NCBI RefSeq assembly: GCF_026212465.1
Contig: NC_080048.1
Span: 37,476,375-37,540,374, forward strand
Reading direction: 5' to 3'
DNA: 64,000 nucleotides
From: Amaranthus tricolor
Taxonomy: Eukaryota; Streptophyta; Magnoliopsida; Caryophyllales; Amaranthaceae
Both the position numbers and the translations under genes were made by a program. This document shows positions 23,689 through 51,249 of this stretch, one piece after another. Numbering within the stretch: position 1 is the first letter of the stretch; the number at the start of each line of letters is the position of its first letter. Under the pieces are notes generated by a model. That model was not told where the DNA came from. It ran no database searches and was given only the letters and a program-made list of their open reading frames with translations.

Positions 23689-24678
23689 GGAAAAAATTAT
23701 AAGAAACTACCTTATTTATAGGTCTATTTGTAAAAAACTATTTTATGTATTTTTTCTGTAAAAAACTACCTAATGTAATATATTCCTTTGCAAATGACTA
23801 CCACTTAACAGATTACGTTAATTGACCGTTAAGTTTGAGGGTTTGACCAATTTAAGAGGTCAAGTTGTCTATGTGGCAGTATATCATTGGTCCTCGTATT
23901 TTTAAATAATTAAAAATTAAAATAAATAAATTAACAAAAAAAATAAAAGATATTTGATGTCATTTTTACTTATCATAACGATATTTATTCAAAAAACGAA
24001 CATCGCGATTATTCTTATGGGGTAACTCTTTCGAAAATCCATTGAAAATGGGATAATTGCGACGTCCGTTTTATGAAAAGATATTGCATTATAATGGGTA
24101 AAAATGACGTAAAAATCTTTTCGTTTTACGTGTTGAAGAATAGGCAAAAAAATACGTGTTCCGACCGGATTTTTAAAAGAGTTATTTTATTAGGGTAGTT
24201 ACGAAGTCTGTTTTTGGGTAAATATGACGTTAAATATCTTTTTCGGTTTACGTGTTGGAAAATAGGCGAATAAGTACTTCTTTCAATCGCATTTTCGAAA
24301 GACTTGACCCATAAGGGCAATCGCGACGTTCGTTTTTTAAAAGGATATCATTATGATTGGTAAAAATGACGTTAAAAATTGAGTACTTGTTTCGACCGAA
24401 TTTCTAAAACAGTTATCCCATAAGGCTACTTGCTTGCGACGTCCGTTTTTTAAAAAATATCGTTATGATGGGTAAAAATAACGTCAAATATCTTCTTTTT
24501 TTGTTAATTTATGTGTTTTAATTTTTAATTATTTAAAAATACAAAGACCAATGAGATATTGTCACGTAGAACTTAACCTCTCAAATTGGTCAAACCCTCA
24601 AACTTAACGGTTAACTCACGTTTTCTGTTAAGTGGTAGTCATTTGCAGAGAAATATATTACATTAGGAAGTTTTTTGA

Positions 24679-24762
<84 letters not shown>

Positions 24763-36236: not shown

Positions 36237-37315
36237 GATGAAAATAAAAAAAAATTCAACTTTGGTGTTTTCTAAAACTTAATTCCCAAAATAGTGTTAT
36301 TTTAGGTAAGAAGTTTTACTAAGCTAAAATATTTGATTTGGAAATTCTATCCTAACAATTAACTTAATAAATTGTAGTCGTGTTGTTATTTATCTTGTAT
36401 TTATTGTCGTATATTTTTGGATCTTTATAAATAAGGATGTTATTGAGTGACTTGTATAATCACAAATCTATTAATCGGCTCTAAGGTAAACGGGTTGTTA
36501 CTATGCTATTTCAATAAGAATACAAAAATATGCTATTTAATGTTTAATTTGTTACTCAATCTGTCAATAAGAATATAATTATGTTGTGTTGATATTTACT
36601 TTGTTAGTCAATTTATCAATTGACTTTGTTAAGAAATTCATCAATTGTCAGAAAACAGACTATACTTTATTATTCATTGTTAATACACTCACATGTTATT
36701 GTGATTGGCAGTAAACGAAGAAGATGGTAACATTCAAATCAAATTGCTACTGCAATTTATCAAAGCTTATTATTCATATCGAATTGCTACCTTTTTCTTT
36801 TTTTTTTTTTGTCAAAGTTTGCATTTTTTTAAAACAAAAGATCACAGGGATAATGCTATCTTCATTTAAAGATAGCCTTGCACATTGCATATTTTTTAAA
36901 CTGATATAATTTTTTTTAGAGAATCTCTGTTGAATTTGATAATAGTAAATGTGAGTTTTTGCTTGGTTTGACAGGTCTTTTGGCTTAGTCATGGTAAAGT
37001 CACACAAGTTTTATGGCGGCCTCAACCGATTTGCAAACCAAGCATAGTGGTTTCGACAAACAACTTTATTGATTTTGACTTTTGAATTTGATTGAGATTT
37101 TTGGTTGTATATAGACGTATTTTTTGGACATTAAGCTCATTTTGTAAGACTTGTGGGATTTGTTAAAAATTTGTTTAACGCATATATTTGCTTGACCAAA
37201 CAATATTATCCTCTTGCAGGTGTAGCTTAGTAAAACTATTTAACTATATGAACACCATTTTGGGAATTAAGTTTTAAGGAACACCAAAGTTGGAATTTTT
37301 TTTTATTTTTCAACC
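36237..37315. mobile_element. Non-autonomous DNA element with about 90-base inverted ends
   Basis: Left arm ggatgaaaataaa...ttcaactttggtgttttc, then acttaattcccaaaatagtg, is mirrored by cattttgggaattaagt (37256-37272) and ttttatttttcaaccc (about 37300-37315). The interior has no transposase. A target duplication could not be fixed. It lies between RLP24 and the Mutator-like MITE. Confidence 0.6.
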
Positions 37316-37526
37316 CTAATTAGGAAAATCATTAGTTTTAATAGACTGGATCAGAAAGACGTCTCTTAAGAAAACGACTATTAAAAATGAATATTATGAA
37401 AATAGGAAAATAGATTTTTATACTAGTGTAGTTGAACTACTTAACTCAATTTAGAACGGAATGCTGTTGATAGTAAGTTTTAATTTTTTTCCTCAAGTCG
37501 TGAGTCGTGACAAGTGTGAGAATTGC

Positions 37527-37946
37527 GAAAATTTGAAAAAAATAAGATCATTTAACTTAATTTCAAAAATAAGCTTCGTGAAAACGTAATTTCCAAAATA
37601 AGCGTCCGTATATCAAAACCTAGCCTTGGAGGCTGTTACTAACAACGACTTAATGAATTTTAAGTTTTCAGTTCTCAGTTACTTTTTCATTCAACCTACG
37701 AGATTAAGGAGTTGATCAGTTAACCTTAAAGTCGCTGTTACTAACAACGACTTAAGGAGTTGACTGGTAGTAACAGCTAACAGCGACTTATGACTTTAAT
37801 TTTTATGTTTTTAATTCGCTGTTAGTAACAGCGACTTATTCCAAGACTAGGTTTGGATGTACGGACGCTTATTTTGGAAATTAAGTTTTTACGAAGTTTA
37901 TTTTTATAATTAAGTTGTTAAATAATTTTATTTTATTCAAATTTTC
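37527..37946. mobile_element. Mutator-like MITE, copy 1
   Basis: The ends GAAAATTTG and CAAATTTTC begin long inverted arms (ttccaaaataagcgtccgta against tacggacgcttattttgga). A perfect 9-base target duplication gagaattgc flanks it at 37518-37526 and 37947-37955. Inside are repeated, partly palindromic words of the type tcgctgtta-taacagcgactta. It ends 83 bases before the NFD6-like start codon. 9-base duplications with long arms are typical of Mutator superfamily MITEs. Confidence 0.9.
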
Positions 37947-38029
37947 GAGAATTGCGATGGATTAATCCTCGAAAATTTATCGACATAAACGGTAGGCTGA
38001 GCAGGAAATCAGAGCTTTTAGAGTGAACA

Positions 38030-38420
38030 ATGGCGGTCGCCGTTGCTGCTGGAAGATCAACATTTATTCGCACTTTGTGTAAAAAACCTACATCTACTCC
38101 CTTTTCTCTTCGATCCTTAATTTCACCTTCTTGTTCTTCTTCGACATCGTCTTTCTTCCTCCGCCATAATCGACTCTCTCCGTCCTCTTCATTCAGGTAC
38201 ATCTTCAGTTTCTCACTATCTTTCTCGTTCCTGGTAAACTATTCGGTTTTTTACAGTTTGATTTTGTTGTAGTGGAAGATTACCTCGAGAATTGTATTCT
38301 TTACTACCATTCCACAACGCTATGGCGTCTGCTTGCCTTGTTTCCAGGCTTCCTGATCGACCTAACACGTCTGCTGAATGTAAGTGCTGTTTATCCCTGT
38401 TTTCTGTAGAAATTGATTAG
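38030..38420 (+). CDS. Small organelle-targeted protein similar to NUCLEAR FUSION DEFECTIVE 6 (3' end uncertain)
   Basis: Exon 1 (38030-38196) and exon 2 (38273-38379) join with phase 2 to encode about 91 residues. Residues 1-55 are rich in Ser, Arg and Ala without acids, as in a mitochondrial or plastid presequence. Exon 2 gives RLPRELYSLLPFHNAMASA then CLVSRLP, which resembles the core of the plant NFD6-like family (LxxxL-PxHxAxASAxLxSxL). NFD6 of Arabidopsis is mitochondrial and needed for polar nuclear fusion. If the GTAAG after 38379 is not spliced, translation stops at TAG 38418-38420. If it is spliced, the terminal exon lies beyond the Copia composite; candidates begin at 49266 or 50226. 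Family assignment is by memory of a short motif, so it is tentative. Confidence 0.55.
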
Positions 38421-38986
38421 TTTAAGAATACCTAGCAAAATCGAATTGATTATTAACTTGTAGTTTTTGTTTAATCGGAGTACTTGTTATGTTTCATGAT
38501 CAATTTATGATAGTTTTAATGAGTTTTGCTAGGTTATTGGAGAATGTAGATATAATTGACACATTTATTTTGTTTTCAAATACTAAAAGTCTAAAACTGC
38601 GTTTTTGGACTGGGTGAGATTTCGGATTCAATTAGCTCTTTGTGGCATCGTCAAACCCTCATTAATGATTTACGTTAGCAGTAATTTGCGAATTTCAAGT
38701 GCCTCCTCTTTAAAGTTTAAAGTGAGAATGTGAGATAGAGGTAGTAATAGTGTAATGCTCACGTTTTGTTATTTTCATTGACCTATTGCTATAGGTAGAC
38801 AAGAAATTGATTGATTTTGCCATTGAGTGTGTCTGCTAAACGACGTTTTACTTGACTTTTGTCTAATTTTGACTTTTGGCTTTTGACTCTGTGATTGGTC
38901 CAACGATCGAGAAAGTGTTTGATGAATGGCCATTATGTCAGATGAAAAATTGGCTTTAAGCTAAAACAAAGAAGTTACTATGAGTA
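38380..38986 (+). other. Presumed start of intron 2 of the NFD6-like gene
   Basis: GTAAGTGCTG at 38380 is a strong donor. The stretch up to the Copia LTR is T-rich and intron-like, with no coding signal. Confidence 0.5.
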
Positions 38987-39473
38987 TGTTGATTAATGAT
39001 GACTCAAACTAGCAAGCACCATTGAAAAAGATGAGTATGGGTCAAAGAGGAGATCCGCGGGGCACGGAGTGCGTTCTGTCTCTATTTCGTGGCTCGCATA
39101 GTTGTACACGGCTCGCGAAATGGCGGTTTCTATTCACGGGAGGTGTCTTTTGGGACGGTTACTTTGTGTTTATTATGTAATAACTTCCTTTTATTGGGCA
39201 TTAGTATATAAACTCCCATTTTAGGATTAAGATATAATTTTTCACAAATTGAGAGAGATCACAAGAGAGCCATTAATTTGTGAGTTGATTGAGATTCATT
39301 TTGTAAATTCTTTGCGATCCTAGTGAAAATATTTAATCTCGGTGCCGGTGGACGTAGCTATCAAATTGATAGTGAACCACATTAAATCTCTTGTGTCATT
39401 TTCTTATTATTTGCATTGAATTTCTTATTGTTTCATTATTGTTCATCGAACTTGCTTCCGCTGTCGCACAACA
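38987..39473 (+). repeat. Copia LTR, forward copy
   Basis: 487 bases from TGTTGATTAATG to CGCACAACA. It contains a TATA-like tattagtatataaactcc at about 39202, compatible with the U3/R promoter. It is followed directly by the primer site. Confidence 0.85.
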
Positions 39474-39491
39474 ATTGGCATCAAGAGCTCA
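39474..39491 (+). other. Primer-binding site, initiator Met tRNA type
   Basis: TGGCATCAAGAGCTC starts two bases after the LTR. It matches the usual Copia site TGGTATCAGAGC imperfectly. The inverted copy (44231-44243) is closer to the consensus. Confidence 0.8.
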
Positions 39492-39526
39492 GGTTTAAGT
39501 CCTTGGAGAGTTTTTTGAGTGGAACA

Positions 39527-42500
39527 ATGGCTGGAGATTCTACAATAAGAATCGAGAAATTTACCGGGAAAAATAGCTTCAGGCTATGGCAAATAAAGAT
39601 GAAGGCTGTGTTGAAACAACAACAAATCTGACGTCCGTTGGCTTCAAAGAGTACTAATGCGGGATCGAATGACGAATTAACTGACGGGCAATTAGCAGTA
39701 ATGGAGGAAAGGGCTCATTCTACCATTTTGCTAAGTTTGGATGATCATATCATCATGGAGATCGCTGATCAGGCTACAGCGGCGGAACTATGGATGAAAT
39801 TGAAGTCATTGTATATGACTAAGTTGCTGACCAACAAATTATTGCTGAAGCAGCGGTTGTTCAGCCTCCGAATGCAGTCAGGTACTCCCTTACGGGAATA
39901 TCTTGAAAAACTTAACTCTATTTTACTAGATTTGCGTAACTTAGATGTTAAAATAGATGATGAGGATGCTGCGTTGATTTTACTTGTGTCTCTATCGTCT
40001 AGCTATGAGAATTTTTTTGAGTCTTTTGTTGTTGGTAAAGAAAGACTCACTGACCTTAGAAGAAGTGAAGGCAATACTTCATATTAGGGAACTTCGTCAG
40101 AAAGCTATAGGTGATAACGGGGAGAGTGGCAGTGGGTTGTTTGTTAAGTCCGGGAAATCTAAAAAGAAGAAGGGGGTTAACAAAGGCAACAATACTGGGT
40201 TGAGTGCTGGAAACGACAATAAGGGATCTGGTAAGACTGGGGGGAAGACTTGTTATTACTGCAAGGAACCGGGTCATTTTAGGGCTAATTGTCCGGTGAG
40301 GAAGGGCAAGTCCCAAGCTGCTGTAGTTGAGGAAAAACCGAAAGAGAACTATAATTCGGAGGAAGACTTGGCATTAGTGAGTTCTGCTAAGTCTGAGGTT
40401 CTTTCTGATGATTGGGTTCTAGATTCGGGGTGTTTGTTCCATATGAGTTCGCGTCGAGACTGGTTTAACACGTATGAATCTTGCAATGGGGGTAATGTTA
40501 TCGTAGGTAACAATGCACCTTGTAAGATTACGGGTATTGGGTCCATGAGATTGAGGATTAGTGATGGGCGAAAGTTGACATTGACTAGGGTGCGACATGT
40601 CCCTGCTTTGGGGAAGAATCTGATTTCATTGGGTACCTTGGATGATTTGGGGTACAATGGAGTGTTTTCGGATGGGGAGTTGTCCATTTATCGAGGTTCA
40701 GAGTTGGTACTTAAGGGTATCAAAAGGAACACCCTCTATATCTTTGAGGGTGTCACACTGTCTAGTTCTGCGGTTTGCGCATCAGTATCTCACCAAAAGA
40801 TGACCAAGATTTGGCACATGAGGCTTGGTCATATGGGGGAGAAGGGGATGCAGCTATTGTCTAAGAGGGGTCTACTATCCGGGATCAAGGTTGCCAACCT
40901 TGAATTTTGTGAGCATTGTGTGTTTGGGAAGAAACACAGGTCAAAGGTCAGCAAGGGTGCTCACATTACTGATGATGTGCTCGATTATATCCATTCAGAT
41001 TGCTGGGGTCCATCTAGGGCTGAAGGTATGACAGGTTTCCGCTATTTTGTATCATTTGTAGATGAAAAATCCCAATACACATGCCTTAGGTTGCTTAAGT
41101 CAAAGGATGAGGGCTTCAAAGCTTTTAAGCAATGGAAAGTTTTGGTGGAGATTCGACAGGGTAGGAAGATCAAGAAGCTACGAATAGACAATGGGCTAGA
41201 GTTTTGCAAAGAGGAGTTTAATCAGTTCTATGCAGATGAGGGTATTGGTCGGCATCATACCGTCGGAATGACACCACAGTAGAACGGTGTTGCAGAGCGG
41301 GTTAATCAGACACTGCTTGAGAGAGTTTGATGCATGCTCTCTAATGCAGGGCTTGGGAAGAGGTGTTGGAATAAAGCTGTGATGACAGCTTGTTATATCA
41401 TCAATAGGGGTTCTCATTCGGGAATTGACTTCAAAATCCCGTTTGAGATCTGGAGTGGTAAGTTGCTTAGTTTCTCTAATTTGAAGATTTTTGGCTGTTT
41501 TACTTATTATCATGTGAGTGAGGGTAAGCTGGATCCACGAGTCAAGGTGGGGTGTTTTGTTGGATATGTTGATGGTGTGAAGGGGTTTAAGATCTATTCA
41601 CCTTCGGAGGGTCGGGTCATTCTTAGTAGGGATGTCACTTTTGATGAGAGCACCATGTATTCCAAGAAGAGCTCGGGATCTTCTGATCTAAGAAAGGAAG
41701 GGGAGAACTTGCTGCAGACAGATGGAGTACTTGAGGTACATCAATCATCCATTGCTGATTTACTTCGAGTGCAGTTTATTGATGATGCTGAGGTTGCAGT
41801 GCCGAATACTCCTGAACCTGAGGTTGTTCCATCTCCTCCTAACTCCGGGGAGGAGGTGGAGCAGTCTAATCAGGGGTCATCTAGTCAATCTGACACTATT
41901 CTTGAGAAACCTAGACGAGTCATCAAGAAGCCTGTTAGATTGATTGAAGAAATGAAAGGAAGAAACTGCTTTGTTGAGAATTTGACAGGTTATGCATTGT
42001 GTGTAGCTGATGATGTAGAGTCATATGAACCTGCCACGTATAAACACGCAATTAGTTGTAGTGAGTCGGCGCAACGGCTTGCTGCAATGGGTGAAGAGAT
42101 GCATAGAACAGAGTGTGGGAACTTGTGAAGGTACCAGAGGGGAGAAAGCTTGTAGGGTGCAAGTGGATTTTTAAGAAGAAAGAAGGATCATCTAAATCTG
42201 AGAAAGTTCGTTTTAAGGCTAGGCTAGTTGCAAAGGGGTTCAGTCAGGTAGAAGGGGTTGACTTCGTGGAGATATTTTCACCAGTGGTTCGACATACTTC
42301 TATTCGTGTGCTATTGTCGATTGTAGCACATTTTGACCTTGAGCTGGAGCAGCTGGATGTTAAGACGACTTTCCTTCATGGCGATTTGGAGGAGGAGATT
42401 TTGATGAAGCAGAGGGAGTCGAGATCCCAGGGAAAGAGCACTATGCATGCAGATTGCTAAAGTCGTATGGACTTAAGCAATCTCCTCGGCAGTGGTACAA

Positions 42501-43340
42501 GAGGTTTGGTTCTTTTATGGTTTCGCATGGTTTTGATAGAAACTCGTATGATTGCTGTGGATATCATCGTAAGTTGGATGACGGTTCCATGATTTATTTG
42601 TTTTTATATGTTGATGACATGCTTGTTGCCACAAAGAATAAATCGGATGTTGCTAGACTTAAAGAGCTGCTTAGCTCGGAATTTGACATGAAAGATTTGG
42701 GTCCAGCTAAGAAGATTTTGGGTATGGAGATCTATAGGGATCGGGCTAGAGGTAAGCTTTTCTTGACTCAGAAAAGTTACATCGAAAAGATTTAATCTCG
42801 TTTTGGGATGGAGAAGTCGAAGCCTATAAGTACACCAACATCTGTGAGCTGCAAATTGTCTTTGTCTATGTCACCTCAAACTGAGGAGGGGTTGACGTAT
42901 ATGTCTAGAGTCCCTTATGCCAACGCTATTGGTTGTTTGATGTATGCTATGGACTGTACTAGGCCGGATATTGCGCACACTGTTAGTGTTGTGAGTAGGT
43001 TCATGGCTCGACCTGGGAGAGAGCAGTGGCAGGGGGTGAAAAGGATTTTTCGCTATTTGAGAGGGACATCTGATATTGGTCTTGTGTATGGGAATGGTAA
43101 GGAGTGTTTGGTAACTTGGTATAGTGATTTTGATTATGCAGCTGATGTGGATACCAGGAGGTCGGTGAAGGGGTATGTATTTACTTTGGATGGTTCTGTG
43201 GTTAGTTGGAAGTCTACATTGCAGTCTTCGGTTACGTTGTCTACTACTGAAGCTGAGTACATGACTTTAACTTCTGCAGCTAAGGAGTCCATATGGCTCA
43301 AAGGCCTTGTAGGTGAACTGGGTATCGCACAGGATTTTGC
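39527..43340 (+). pseudogene. Copia gag-pol remnant, forward arm
   Basis: In order: gag from ATG 39527 (IRIEKFTGKNSFRLWQIKM) with an early TGA near 39629; gag body 39638-40040 with a frameshift near 40035-40050; zinc knuckle C-x2-C-x4-H-x4-C at 40251-40292; protease Asp-Ser-Gly at 40422-40430; the pre-integrase HC region from 40810; integrase core to about 41450, with an in-frame TAG (41280-41282) and TGA (41328-41330). Then come reverse transcriptase from about 42113 with a frame break near 42415 and the YVDD site at 42607-42618, a TAA at 42793, and the RNase H domain to about 43335. The TAG and TGA sit where Gln and Arg codons are usual, consistent with C-to-T decay. No polypurine tract or 3' LTR follows. 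Confidence 0.9.
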
Positions 43341-44193
43341 TCTCTCTCAGGTCGAGCCATGAACATACTCACAACACTAACAGCGTGCGCAATATCCGGC
43401 CTAGTACAGACCATAGCATACATCAAACAACCAATAGCGTTGGTATAAGGGAGTCTAGACATATACGCCAGCTCTTCCTCAGTTTGAGGTGACATAGACA
43501 AAGACAATTTGCAGCTTACAGATGTTGGTGTACTTATAGGCTCAGATTTCTCCATCCCAAAACGAGACAAAATCTTTTCGATGTAACTTTTCTGAGTCAA
43601 GAAAAGCTTACCCTAGCCCGATCTCTATAGATCTCCATACCCAAAATCTTCTTAGCTGGACCCAAATCTTTCATGTCAAATTCCGAATTAAGCAACTCTT
43701 TAAGTCTAGCAACATTCGATGATATGCAACAGATTTATTCTTTGTGGCAACAAGCATGTCATCAACATATAACAACAAATAAATCATGGAACCGTTATCC
43801 AACTTAGGATGATACACACAACAATCATACGAGTTCCTATCAAAACCATGCGAAACAATAAAAAAATCAAACCTGTTGTACCACTGCCGAGGGGATTGCT
43901 TAAGTCCATACAATGACTTTATCAATTTGCAAGCATAGTGCTCTTTCCCTGGGATCTCGAATCCCTCGGGCTGCTTCATCCAAACTTAGCAAAATGGTAG
44001 AATGAGCCTTTTCCTCTATTACTGCTAATTGCCCGTCAGTTAATCCGTCTTCCGACCCCGTAGTAGTACTCTTTGAAGCCAACGGATCCTAGATTTGCTG
44101 CTGTTTCAATAGAGCCTTCATCTTTATTTGCCATAGCCTGAAGCTATTTTTCCCGGTAAATTTCTCAATTTTTATTGTAGAATCCCCAGCCAT
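43340..44193 (-). pseudogene. Copia gag-pol remnant, inverted arm with gag-to-RT deletion
   Basis: On the minus strand gag starts at ATG 44193, has a stop in the same region as the forward arm, and runs into ILLSLD. It then jumps at about 43980 directly to the reverse transcriptase codons (MKQPEGFEIPG) and the YVDD site (about 43769-43758), followed by part of RNase H ending at about 43340. The deletion removes some 2.65 kb relative to the forward arm, and GATGA is shared by both breakpoints (microhomology). Sequence in shared parts is close to the forward arm but not identical. Confidence 0.85.
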
Positions 44194-44245
44194 TGTTTCA
44201 CTCAAACACTCTCCAAGGACTTAAAACCTGAGCTCTGATACCAAT

Positions 44246-44759
44246 TGTTGTGCGACAGCGGAAGCAAGGCCGATGAACAATAATGAAACAATAAGAAACT
44301 CAATGCAAATAATAATGACACAAGAGATTAACATGGTTCACTATCAATGTGATAGCTACGTCCACCGGCACCGAGATTAAATAATTTCACTATGATCGCA
44401 AAGAATTTACAAGATGAATTACAATCACACTCACAAATTATAATGGCTCTCTCGTGATCGCTCTTAATTTGTGAATCATCATGTAGTAATCCTAAAATGG
44501 GAGTTTATATACTAATGCCCAATAAAAGGAAGTTATTACATAACAAACACAAAGTAACCGTCCCAAAAGACACCTCCCGTGAAAAGAAACCGCCATTTCG
44601 CGAGTTGTGTACAACTATGCGAGCTGCGAAATGGAGACATAACGTACTGCGTGCCCCGCGGACTGATGCAACAGCTTCTTCGCGCCCCGCAGACCTCCTC
44701 TTTGACCCATACTCATCTTCTTCAATGGTGCTTGCTAGTTTGAGTCACCATTAACAACA
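44246..44759 (-). repeat. Copia LTR, inverted copy
   Basis: 514 bases, ends TGTTG/CAACA, similar to the forward LTR throughout (for example the gactcaaactagcaagcacc end and the gtgccggtggacgtagct block). A 27-base length difference and scattered substitutions show they are not a freshly made pair. Confidence 0.85.
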
Positions 44760-47700
44760 TTCTTTAGAAAATCTCAATTCGATATTTGGTTGGGGCCCTT
44801 CTAATTTTTCGTGATGGGTATGACCAACAAGTTTGGGTGAGAACTATCACGACTGGTCTAAATTTATATCGAGGAGGCCTACCCAAACCACATTGTGAGC
44901 CTCGCCCTTCGTGTATGGCATAGGATTCTCCTCATGTCTGTGTTCTCCAAGGCCGATCAACACAAGGCCACCTCTACTAACTTGCTACCCTTTACTCCAC
45001 TATCCACCCTTCCAAGGGTAGGATGATTAATTATGGTTGGTTATTTACCTCCCACGGGATGACAATGGTGCCATCTAGGGGTGTTCAAAATAACCCGACC
45101 AACATCCTAAATGGTTGGTCATCGTGTGAAAAAAATTCTATGTTACGAGTTAGGTCATGGGCCACAAAAAGGAATTTAGGTAGGTACCCACGGTCAAGTG
45201 AATATAGAGGAAATTTTATTTAGAAATCATGTGTAGTGTTAATGTCGAGACCAACCGAGAAGAAGAAAGCCAACAAATTTGAATAATATATAATTATTCT
45301 AACTTTAATTTTAATTCATGACATCTCTACTAGCAATGCTTACAAATTCTCATAATACCATATTGATAATGACTATTTAAAGAAACAAACAAAAAGCCAA
45401 ACTTCACTTTATAATTTTCTAGATCTTATTCTATCAAAAGTTTTCAACTTTCTGGATAAAAGTTTTGAATTCATTCTATTGGGGAAGAACTTGTTGAGAA
45501 GAAAATTCATTAATTATAATAGTTAAGTGAGTAAAACAATGGAGGAGACAATGGTAAGAGAAGGAATGTCTCTTTCTGATAGACATACCTTTGTTTGAGT
45601 ACAAGATAATATTCATTCACTAATTCAGCCAAAAAAGTTCTAGCAAAAATACACATTTTATGAAATCGAGTCCCCGCTGTCTTGACCCGCTTTATCTGGG
45701 TATCCGGTTAAAGCGGTCGGGACATGGGCCGCTTATGCAACTACTCGGCTTTTTGGGTACCCTTTTATGACACCTTTAGTGCCATCCATTTGGGTGGCAT
45801 GTTCACAAGGTTAGCTCATACCTTAGTGCATGTTGCTTTCTGCGAGGCGAACACACCCGGACAACACTAGACCTTGAGTACTTTAAGAGTTATGCTTTCA
45901 TCTCTCCTTGAGAAGACAACTCCTCTGTGAAGGTTGGTGGCCAGCCTTATTGCACTCTTCGACCGCCATCTTAATTTCCAAGAGTTCGAGGTGCACTGAG
46001 GCGTAAAAGGTCCTTAGCGCAATGTGTGTACACACTTTTTCACTAAAAAGCTTCAAAATAGGCTATTTTGGTTGGTTATACTTTGCTCCTTCTCACATCA
46101 TAGGCTGAACTTTATGAATTGTATTTGTTGGGTTGAACTTTGGGGTAATTTCTATTTTTGAAATTAAAAAAGTTAATAAATTAAAAGAAAATGAAAACTA
46201 AATCAAAACTAGATTAAAAAAAATTAATTCTCTACCAAACCATGTTCTTGCTCAGCTTTCAATTTTAATCTCCATTGTTCAAGATTTTAATTTTGATCTT
46301 CAATTACTTAACCTCTATTAATGGAGATCAGAGGTCTAATTTTTTCCTTAAAAGGCTTGAAGGTCCAATTTTTTGTTGACCTCCATTAACGGAGATTAAA
46401 GGTCAAATTTATTCCCTAAAAAGAATTGAAGGTCTAATTTTTTCTTAACCTTCATTGATGGAGATTGAAGGTCTAATTTTTTCCGAACCTCCATTAATGG
46501 AAATTGAAGGTCCAATTTTTTCTCTAAAAAGAATCGAAAGTCTAATTTTTTCTTAAACTCCATTAATGAAGATTGATGGTTGGCAATTTTCTTAATTCTT
46601 AACCTCCATTAATGGAGATTCCATGTCTAATTTTTTTTTACCTAATAGAATTGAATTCTAGTTTCTTAACCTCCATTAATGGAGATTGAATGTCCGAGTT
46701 TTCTTACCCTTCATTAATGGAGATTAGTTGATATGGAAGGATAGAGGATAAATTATAGCTTGGACAACATATCCGTCATTATAGCTTCCATGGACAATTC
46801 AATTCAGTCCATTTCAGGCAACTTTGTGAATGATAAGGAAGTCAATTGATAAAATTAAGCTAAGGTTTTTGGTATTGGGATGGGGGTTTGGGACAGGGGA
46901 TGTTGTCATGTTCAATTTATCTCTCTTTTCATCTAAAAATTGCAATGATTAACGCTATTTTAGCACATAACTATTATATTGAGAATATTCTAGTAAATTT
47001 GGGTTTTGAGTTTTATTCCTTTTTCAAACAAACAATTAATTACCCAACCCAACAAGGAGGCGCATTGGGCGCATAAGGCTCTAAATGCATCAAGGCGCAC
47101 ACCTCTTGTAGTGGGCTTTGCCTCACGTACCAAGGCATCTTCCGTTGAGCCTAAGCTTGAGGCGCATAAGGCGCAAAGCGAGGCACCACCATCACCTCTA
47201 AATGCGGTGTTTGGATTTTTCCTAGGAGTTTGACACCATCCGTTAGGTTATGAATGTGCAAGGGGAGGACAGTGAGTTAGTGACGATGATGATGGGACGG
47301 GAATGATGATGATGATGATGATGATGACTAGTGCTAGGAGGAGCCTTTATGCTTTTCTGCACATTCCGTTTGGTCATGACAGGTAGTTCGAACTCCTCAT
47401 TCTAGGATTAAAATGTTGGGCTTCTAGAAAGGATCATTTTAGGAAGATGAAAGTAGTAGAAATGCAAATACACCGATGGCGTAGCGAACATACTTTGAGG
47501 CATAGAATTCAAAATAAAGACATAAGAAAGGTTTTGAAGTTGCTTATATTGAGGAGAATGTGAAAGAGAATAATTTAAGATTGTTTGGGCTTGTGTAAGT
47601 TGCAAAGACAAGTATGGTCAAAGGATACTTGGCGGATTTTAATCGAGGGTGCGGAAGACATTACATGATCTTGACTTAATTAAGAGGAAGTCAGTTTGAA

Positions 47701-50890: not shown

Positions 50891-51240
50891 TGAAAATTTA
50901 AAAAAAAAGACAATTAACTTATTTCCCAAAATAAGCGTCCGTACATCCAAGCCTAGTCTCGGGGATCATTCGCTGTTAGTAGCAGGGACTTAATGCGTTT
51001 TAAGTTTTCAGTTCTCAGTTACTTCCTTATTCCAGTTGACGAGGTGGAGGAGTTACCAGTTAACCTTAAAGTCGCTGTTACTTTGGGCTTTTAATTTTTT
51101 TTTCCTCTTTCGCTCTTACTAACAGCGACTCTTGCCAAACTTAGGTTTGGATGTACGGACGCTTATTTTGGAAAATAAGTTTTCACGGAGCTTATTTTAG
51201 AAAATAAGTTGTTTAATTGTCTTATTTTTTTCAAATTTTC
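50891..51240. mobile_element. Mutator-like MITE, copy 2
   Basis: Same family as 37527-37946: inverted arms with aaaataagcgtccgtaca and tgtacggacgcttatttt, and interior gtcgctgttac and aacagcgact words. It is flanked by tagtttttt at 50882-50890 and 51241-51249 (perfect 9 bases). It is about 70 bases shorter than copy 1 because of a central deletion. Confidence 0.88.
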
Positions 51241-51249
51241 TAGTTTTTT

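Follow-up and report, generated by a model that had tools for sequence, protein, structure and literature searches.

Illegitimate recombination reportedly causes deletions in plant LTR retrotransposons that leave truncated copies with short overlaps at the breaks (the account attributed to Devos 2002). Complexes containing two retrotransposon bodies were described by Sabot and Schulman (2007; PMC1950507), who cite Devos 2002. Their two-insertion, or recombinant, complexes lack flanking duplications and carry outer LTRs from different events; in their template-switching complexes (Angela, Squiq, and Opie), 5-bp duplications are present and the outer LTRs resemble each other closely, with no similarity threshold given. 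In Table 1 of that paper, about 7 Mb of sequence yields 20 complexes classed as recombinant and 2 as template-switching, while the text speaks of two out of the 20. By these criteria, the absence of a duplication from its flanks places the locus described here on the recombinant side; the LTRs do not decide. As in recombinant complexes, two insertions would have been fused after integration, and no target duplication flanks them. However, the published complexes lie on the same strand and share an internal LTR produced by LTR-LTR recombination, whereas the fusion here is inverted and appears to be joined inside RNase H at an overlap of 3 to 4 bases. With template-switching complexes the locus has in common two bodies in one apparent unit and outer LTR ends, but neither the 5-bp duplications nor the three LTRs of those complexes are present, and its LTR similarity is ambiguous. 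Truncated copies and short break-point overlaps recall the Devos 2002 deletions, except that the deletion here would span two opposed copies. A narrow, all-terms literature search for head-to-head Copia composites returned silencing work only, and we make no claim that such composites are unreported. Our preferred reading, to which we assign a probability of about 0.7, is that two separate, opposed insertions were followed by microhomology repair that deleted both 3' ends. The fusion thus looks like ordinary genome decay rather than a new mode of insertion.

Within the window (the whole 64-kb stretch of DNA that was analyzed), the composite occupies positions 38987 to 44759 and consists of a left Copia copy on the plus strand and a shorter right copy on the minus strand, whose coordinates are collected in Table 1. 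Both copies are decayed members of one family, each with its 5' LTR outermost and its far (3') end absent; the left LTR starts with TGTTG at 38987 and the right LTR ends with CAACA at 44759. The coordinates and the inverted arms agree with the original prediction that two copies meet head-on at about 43340. The arms pair 38993-39744 with 43976-44754 and 42412-43025 with 43338-43967, in nine ungapped blocks that are 91 to 95% complementary, far beyond chance. The composite had been called palindromic, and the inverted arms are real; it is nonetheless asymmetrical, with 312 nt of left-copy sequence between the innermost arms. A BLAST search of the window with 38900-44850 as the query (E ≤ 1e-5) returned only the query itself and the inverted arms, so no 3' LTR was detected in the 64 kb, as had been predicted along with the outward position of both 5' LTRs. 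No further LTR match that could represent a third, internal LTR was present in the window either.

Table 1. Coordinates of the Copia composite and its immediate borders
Feature	Position	Strand	Details
Left outer flank	38982..38986	.	GAGTA
Left 5' LTR	38987..39473	+	487 nt, TGTTG...ACAACA, TATATAAAC at 39205
Left primer-binding-site region	39474..39490	+	ATTGGCATCAAGAGCTC; right-copy counterpart ATTGGTATCAGAGCTC
Left body	39527..43340	+	gag, zinc knuckle, Pol_BBD, integrase region, RT, part of RNase H
Head-on join	43338..43341	.	Probable overlap TGC (43338-43340), perhaps TGCT
Right RT/RNase H part	43338..43979	-	Homologous to left 42404-43025
Right internal deletion point GATGA	43976..43980	-	GATGA in left copy at 39740 and 42403
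Right primer-binding site to gag start	43976..44245	-	239 of 270 aligned bases identical to the left copy
Right 5' LTR	44246..44759	-	514 nt; TATATAAAC on - strand at 44503-44511
Right outer flank	44760..44764	.	TTCTT, no match to left flank

The left body holds several open reading frames, split by stops and frameshifts, and ends abruptly near 43340, within RNase H. Its Pfam matches run in the order Retrotran_gag_2, zf-CCHC, Pol_BBD, gag_pre-integrs, rve, SH3_retrovirus, and RVT_2, the rve match (28.8 bits) lying under the Pfam cut-off of 32.6. On this domain order (gag, integrase, RVT_2), the left copy classes as Ty1/Copia. Both LTRs, TGTTG...ACAACA, are followed by an ATTGGYATCA primer-binding site, as is characteristic of Copia LTRs; the primer tRNA is probably initiator Met. 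In the right copy, one of the two pieces given had a Pfam RVT_2 match. The RNase H pieces had no Pfam match and were placed by alignment to relatives only. The right copy, described in the original prediction as a partial copy, is indeed truncated but has also been internally deleted: it jumps from the first part of gag to RT and has no equivalent of the 2,663 nt that make up left-copy positions 39740-42402. A 5-nt overlap, GATGA, lies at the break, and overlaps of at least 5 bases occurred in 0.6% of random internal deletions with the left copy as the model. The right copy would have lost this 2,663-nt middle at the 5-base overlap either before or after the central deletion.

At the join, RNase H meets RNase H, and an LTR terminus is absent. 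Where relatives read QDFATVYCDS, the left copy reads QDFALSQ, which places the end of its own sequence at GATTTTGC or GATTTTGCT. At the point where the right copy stops, relatives mostly read REHW, so its own sequence reaches TGCTCTC. Given these continuations on the two sides, only TGC, or at most TGCT, can belong to both copies, and we infer an overlap of TGC, perhaps TGCT, from the peptides of relatives. The longer shared run reported earlier (gctctctc/gagagagc) was a misreading: gctctctc (43339-43346) is the right copy's own sequence, and gagagagc (43017-43024) is the left-copy homologue of the right copy's end rather than a junction overlap. Random opposed joins were simulated with the left copy serving as both partners, and 5.0% of them had an overlap of at least 3 bases; taken alone, the 3-base overlap is weak. 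None of five junction peptide words occurred in 239 proteins (among the matches listed). Viral contigs contained 0 exact matches to the join, in a collection that is unsuitable for the purpose and carries little weight, and yielded 0 relatives by protein (15 stretches fit the pattern, none confirmed). Like the left copy, one A. tricolor protein, P0018, leaves the family pattern immediately after QDFA, but with a different continuation. This departure is probably a gene-model effect, although the two may share a weak point.

The outer flanks do not match, as had been noted. GAGTA and TTCTT differ at 4 of 5 positions, and no exact 4- to 6-mer match between the flanks was found with each border shifted by up to 3 bases. 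For a 5-bp duplication decayed at the divergence of the arms (0.064 to 0.127), the probability of at least 4 mismatches is 0.00008 to 0.0012. A target duplication may instead have been lost through deletion in one flank; the LTR ends (TGTTG) are intact on both sides. Under our preferred reading, two members of the same Copia family would have inserted separately at nearby sites, opposed and with their 3' ends inward. Later, a double-strand break, or the collapse of a hairpin of the kind that tail-to-tail copies can form, would have been repaired by end joining at the 3- to 4-base overlap, with the loss of each copy's 3' part and 3' LTR, the inner target duplication on each side, and the intervening host DNA. 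With these inner duplications gone, separate target duplications for each half, which the original prediction named as a refuting finding, would not be expected. The two insertions, the order of events, the repair route, and the exact overlap belong to this reconstruction. Copies that face each other with their 3' ends inward make an inverted repeat; PMC10164571 reports that such repeats in yeast provoke rearrangement even if divergent or far apart when DNA is single-stranded. Microhomology-mediated deletion in wheat is described in passages of PMC7156093. The original prediction held that simple insertion cannot give this structure. That is correct for one insertion, but two opposed insertions and one deletion would suffice. 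If so, the fusion would be one more case of a plant genome shedding retrotransposon DNA, distinguished by the opposed orientation of its partners, and a caution that opposed LTRs without a target duplication need no exotic insertion mechanism.

The main rival is a breakpoint of an inversion or translocation, in which breaks in two distant copies were joined and the flanks derive from loci that were not neighbors. Such an event predicts an identical structure, likewise lacking a target duplication, through the same repair chemistry but with a different topology, and the missing halves, none of which were detected in the 64 kb, would be elsewhere. A larger rearrangement is needed, however, and we consider this origin unlikely, though it is the one to be taken most seriously after two nearby insertions. 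The odds among the readings of origin rest mainly on the flanks and the join.

Of the three mechanisms proposed originally, break repair between two copies fits the locus, but template switching and self-integration are disfavored by the flanks and the join. In the former, reverse transcription would have switched between two co-packaged RNAs, and one palindromic cDNA would have been inserted, its target duplication being lost later. The outer ends are exact LTR termini, usable by integrase, the LTRs retain 93% identity across the aligned bases, and template-switching complexes exist in grasses (PMC1950507). Set against this, the 5-bp repeat is missing from the flanks (4 of 5 positions mismatched), and the published cases are same-strand with three LTRs, whereas no internal LTR was found here in the window. 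We therefore regard template switching as improbable.

The divergence of the arms is in keeping with two separate insertions and also bears on the two remaining alternatives. The base-by-base alignment suggested with the original prediction gave a divergence of 6 to 13%, with indels. The LTR arms (K2P 0.072) are identical at 447 of 480 aligned bases (93%), with 6 gap events; the segment from the primer-binding site to the gag break (K2P 0.127) at 239 of 270; and the RT/RNase H arms (K2P 0.064) at 584 of 622 aligned bases, this last alignment being extended by a single base on either side. Divergence was uneven across the three segments (p = 0.016). The 52 coding differences fell on codon positions 1, 2, and 3 in numbers of 13, 16, and 23, respectively. 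This third-position excess is weak (p = 0.07), so that neutral decay explains much of the arm divergence, which could be largely decay after one event. LTR similarity of 93% is likewise ambiguous, since age alone could give it. Inverted repeats are hard to assemble, and two copies might have been falsely joined in an assembly chimera. A fold-back artifact would give identical arms, however, whereas those observed differ by 6 to 13% with indels, and a false join would be expected within matching sequence rather than at a nonhomologous point; an artifact of this kind seems very improbable. Self-integration, in which an LTR end of the cDNA attacks its own interior, is a known suicidal retroelement pathway whose activated 3' ends attack internal sites, according to passages of PMC2644782. 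Unless the join was later trimmed, it should leave an LTR terminus there, whereas RNase H is joined to RNase H, and the arms of one molecule would be identical at the start, so that all of the 6 to 13% divergence would have to be later decay; we give it hardly any credence. We also discarded a nested insertion, in which one copy would have landed in the other: the join lacks an LTR end, and BLAST within the window detected no further piece of the left copy past 44759.

We also asked how the arms relate to other members of the family. The three best protein matches were from Amaranthus tricolor (82 to 89% identity over 80 to 95%), two Chenopodium quinoa entries reached 94% and 88% identity over 61%, and Beta and tomato proteins reached 68 to 72% (all among the matches listed); the host thus probably belongs in or close to Amaranthaceae. 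Across 91 residues, each arm had 5 private changes, and at 5 residues both arms departed from what most of six relatives have, these relatives being chosen by hand from 12 proteins. These counts are rough because 3 shared sites have split majorities and 1 is the last codon before the join. The proteins compared for motifs numbered 239 (the best 120 of 1182 and the best 120 of 132 matches, one being common to both). Among these listed matches, the SMFMA of the right arm occurred in P0018 (A. tricolor) alone, 1 of the 239, where it is accompanied by the right-arm PERE, also unique to it among the 15 listed proteins with the whole motif. The E of PERE was found as well in P0125 and P0127, both without the M and outside the whole motif. 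The left arm has a T in common with P0018 and P0042, and the I in NAIG, common to both arms, is present in 6 others of the 239 listed matches. Together, these residues make a thin case that the arms may come from different sub-lineages. Several database proteins that are fragments of this Copia RNase H region (P0001 to P0003, P0006, P0018, and others) are annotated as "secreted RxLR effector protein 161-like"; this name is misleading, since the region sits inside a Copia element.

A long shot is that the fusion is a naturally formed source of hairpin RNA that silences the Copia family to which both copies belong. Read-through from either putative inward 5' LTR promoter, or convergent transcription, would yield double-stranded RNA. 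TATATAAAC is kept in both LTRs, but it occurs 3 more times in the window and is thus no more than a hint of promoters, which would face inward. Perfect duplex runs of at least 21 nt number 20 in all (692 nt): one homologous segment holds 11 (375 nt) and the other 9 (317 nt). In a predicted fold of the whole strand, computed with no shuffled control, 1,308 of 2,306 base pairs link one side to the other. Mu killer and an Arabidopsis EVD copy nested in antisense are raised as possible silencing sources in passages of PMC11624286, whose authors, in those passages, did not test their own locus for siRNA and found LTR siRNAs to be mostly 24 nt, unlike the usual hairpin products. The resemblance to the systems in those passages lies in the opposed arrangement of copies, from which transcription directed inward could produce double-stranded RNA; here, in contrast, both 3' halves are lost. 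If the idea were true, decay rather than transposition would have given a Copia family its equivalent of maize Mu killer, in the sense of a transcribed inverted repeat whose siRNA silences the family. Should the locus be transcribed, it would be relevant to the onset of silencing in Copia families.

Other repeats were observed in the window. A MITE-like fold-back of ∼0.4 kb (37526-37947) has arms of ∼105 nt (77-nt and 31-nt blocks, 90% each), and parts of it recur at 50972-51032 and 51080-51243 (80 to 85% identity) and, inverted, at 51135-51228. An inverted repeat at 36241-37309, with 86-nt arms that are 84% complementary and ∼0.9 kb apart, is possibly a small transposon. Farther left, nested inverted repeats at 23744-24692 (arms of 123, 75, and 102 nt; 77 to 89%) make up a ∼0.95-kb fold-back ending at an AT run. 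About 1.5 kb to the right of the composite, an irregular tandem array (46255-46725) has units of 38 to 39, 69, and 108 nt around CCTCCATTAATGGAG. On the other side, ∼600 bp left of the composite, a coding-like start (MAVAVAAGRSTFIRTL) lies at 38030-38380 and presumably resembles the first exons of a gene for a small organelle-targeted protein (NFD6-like).
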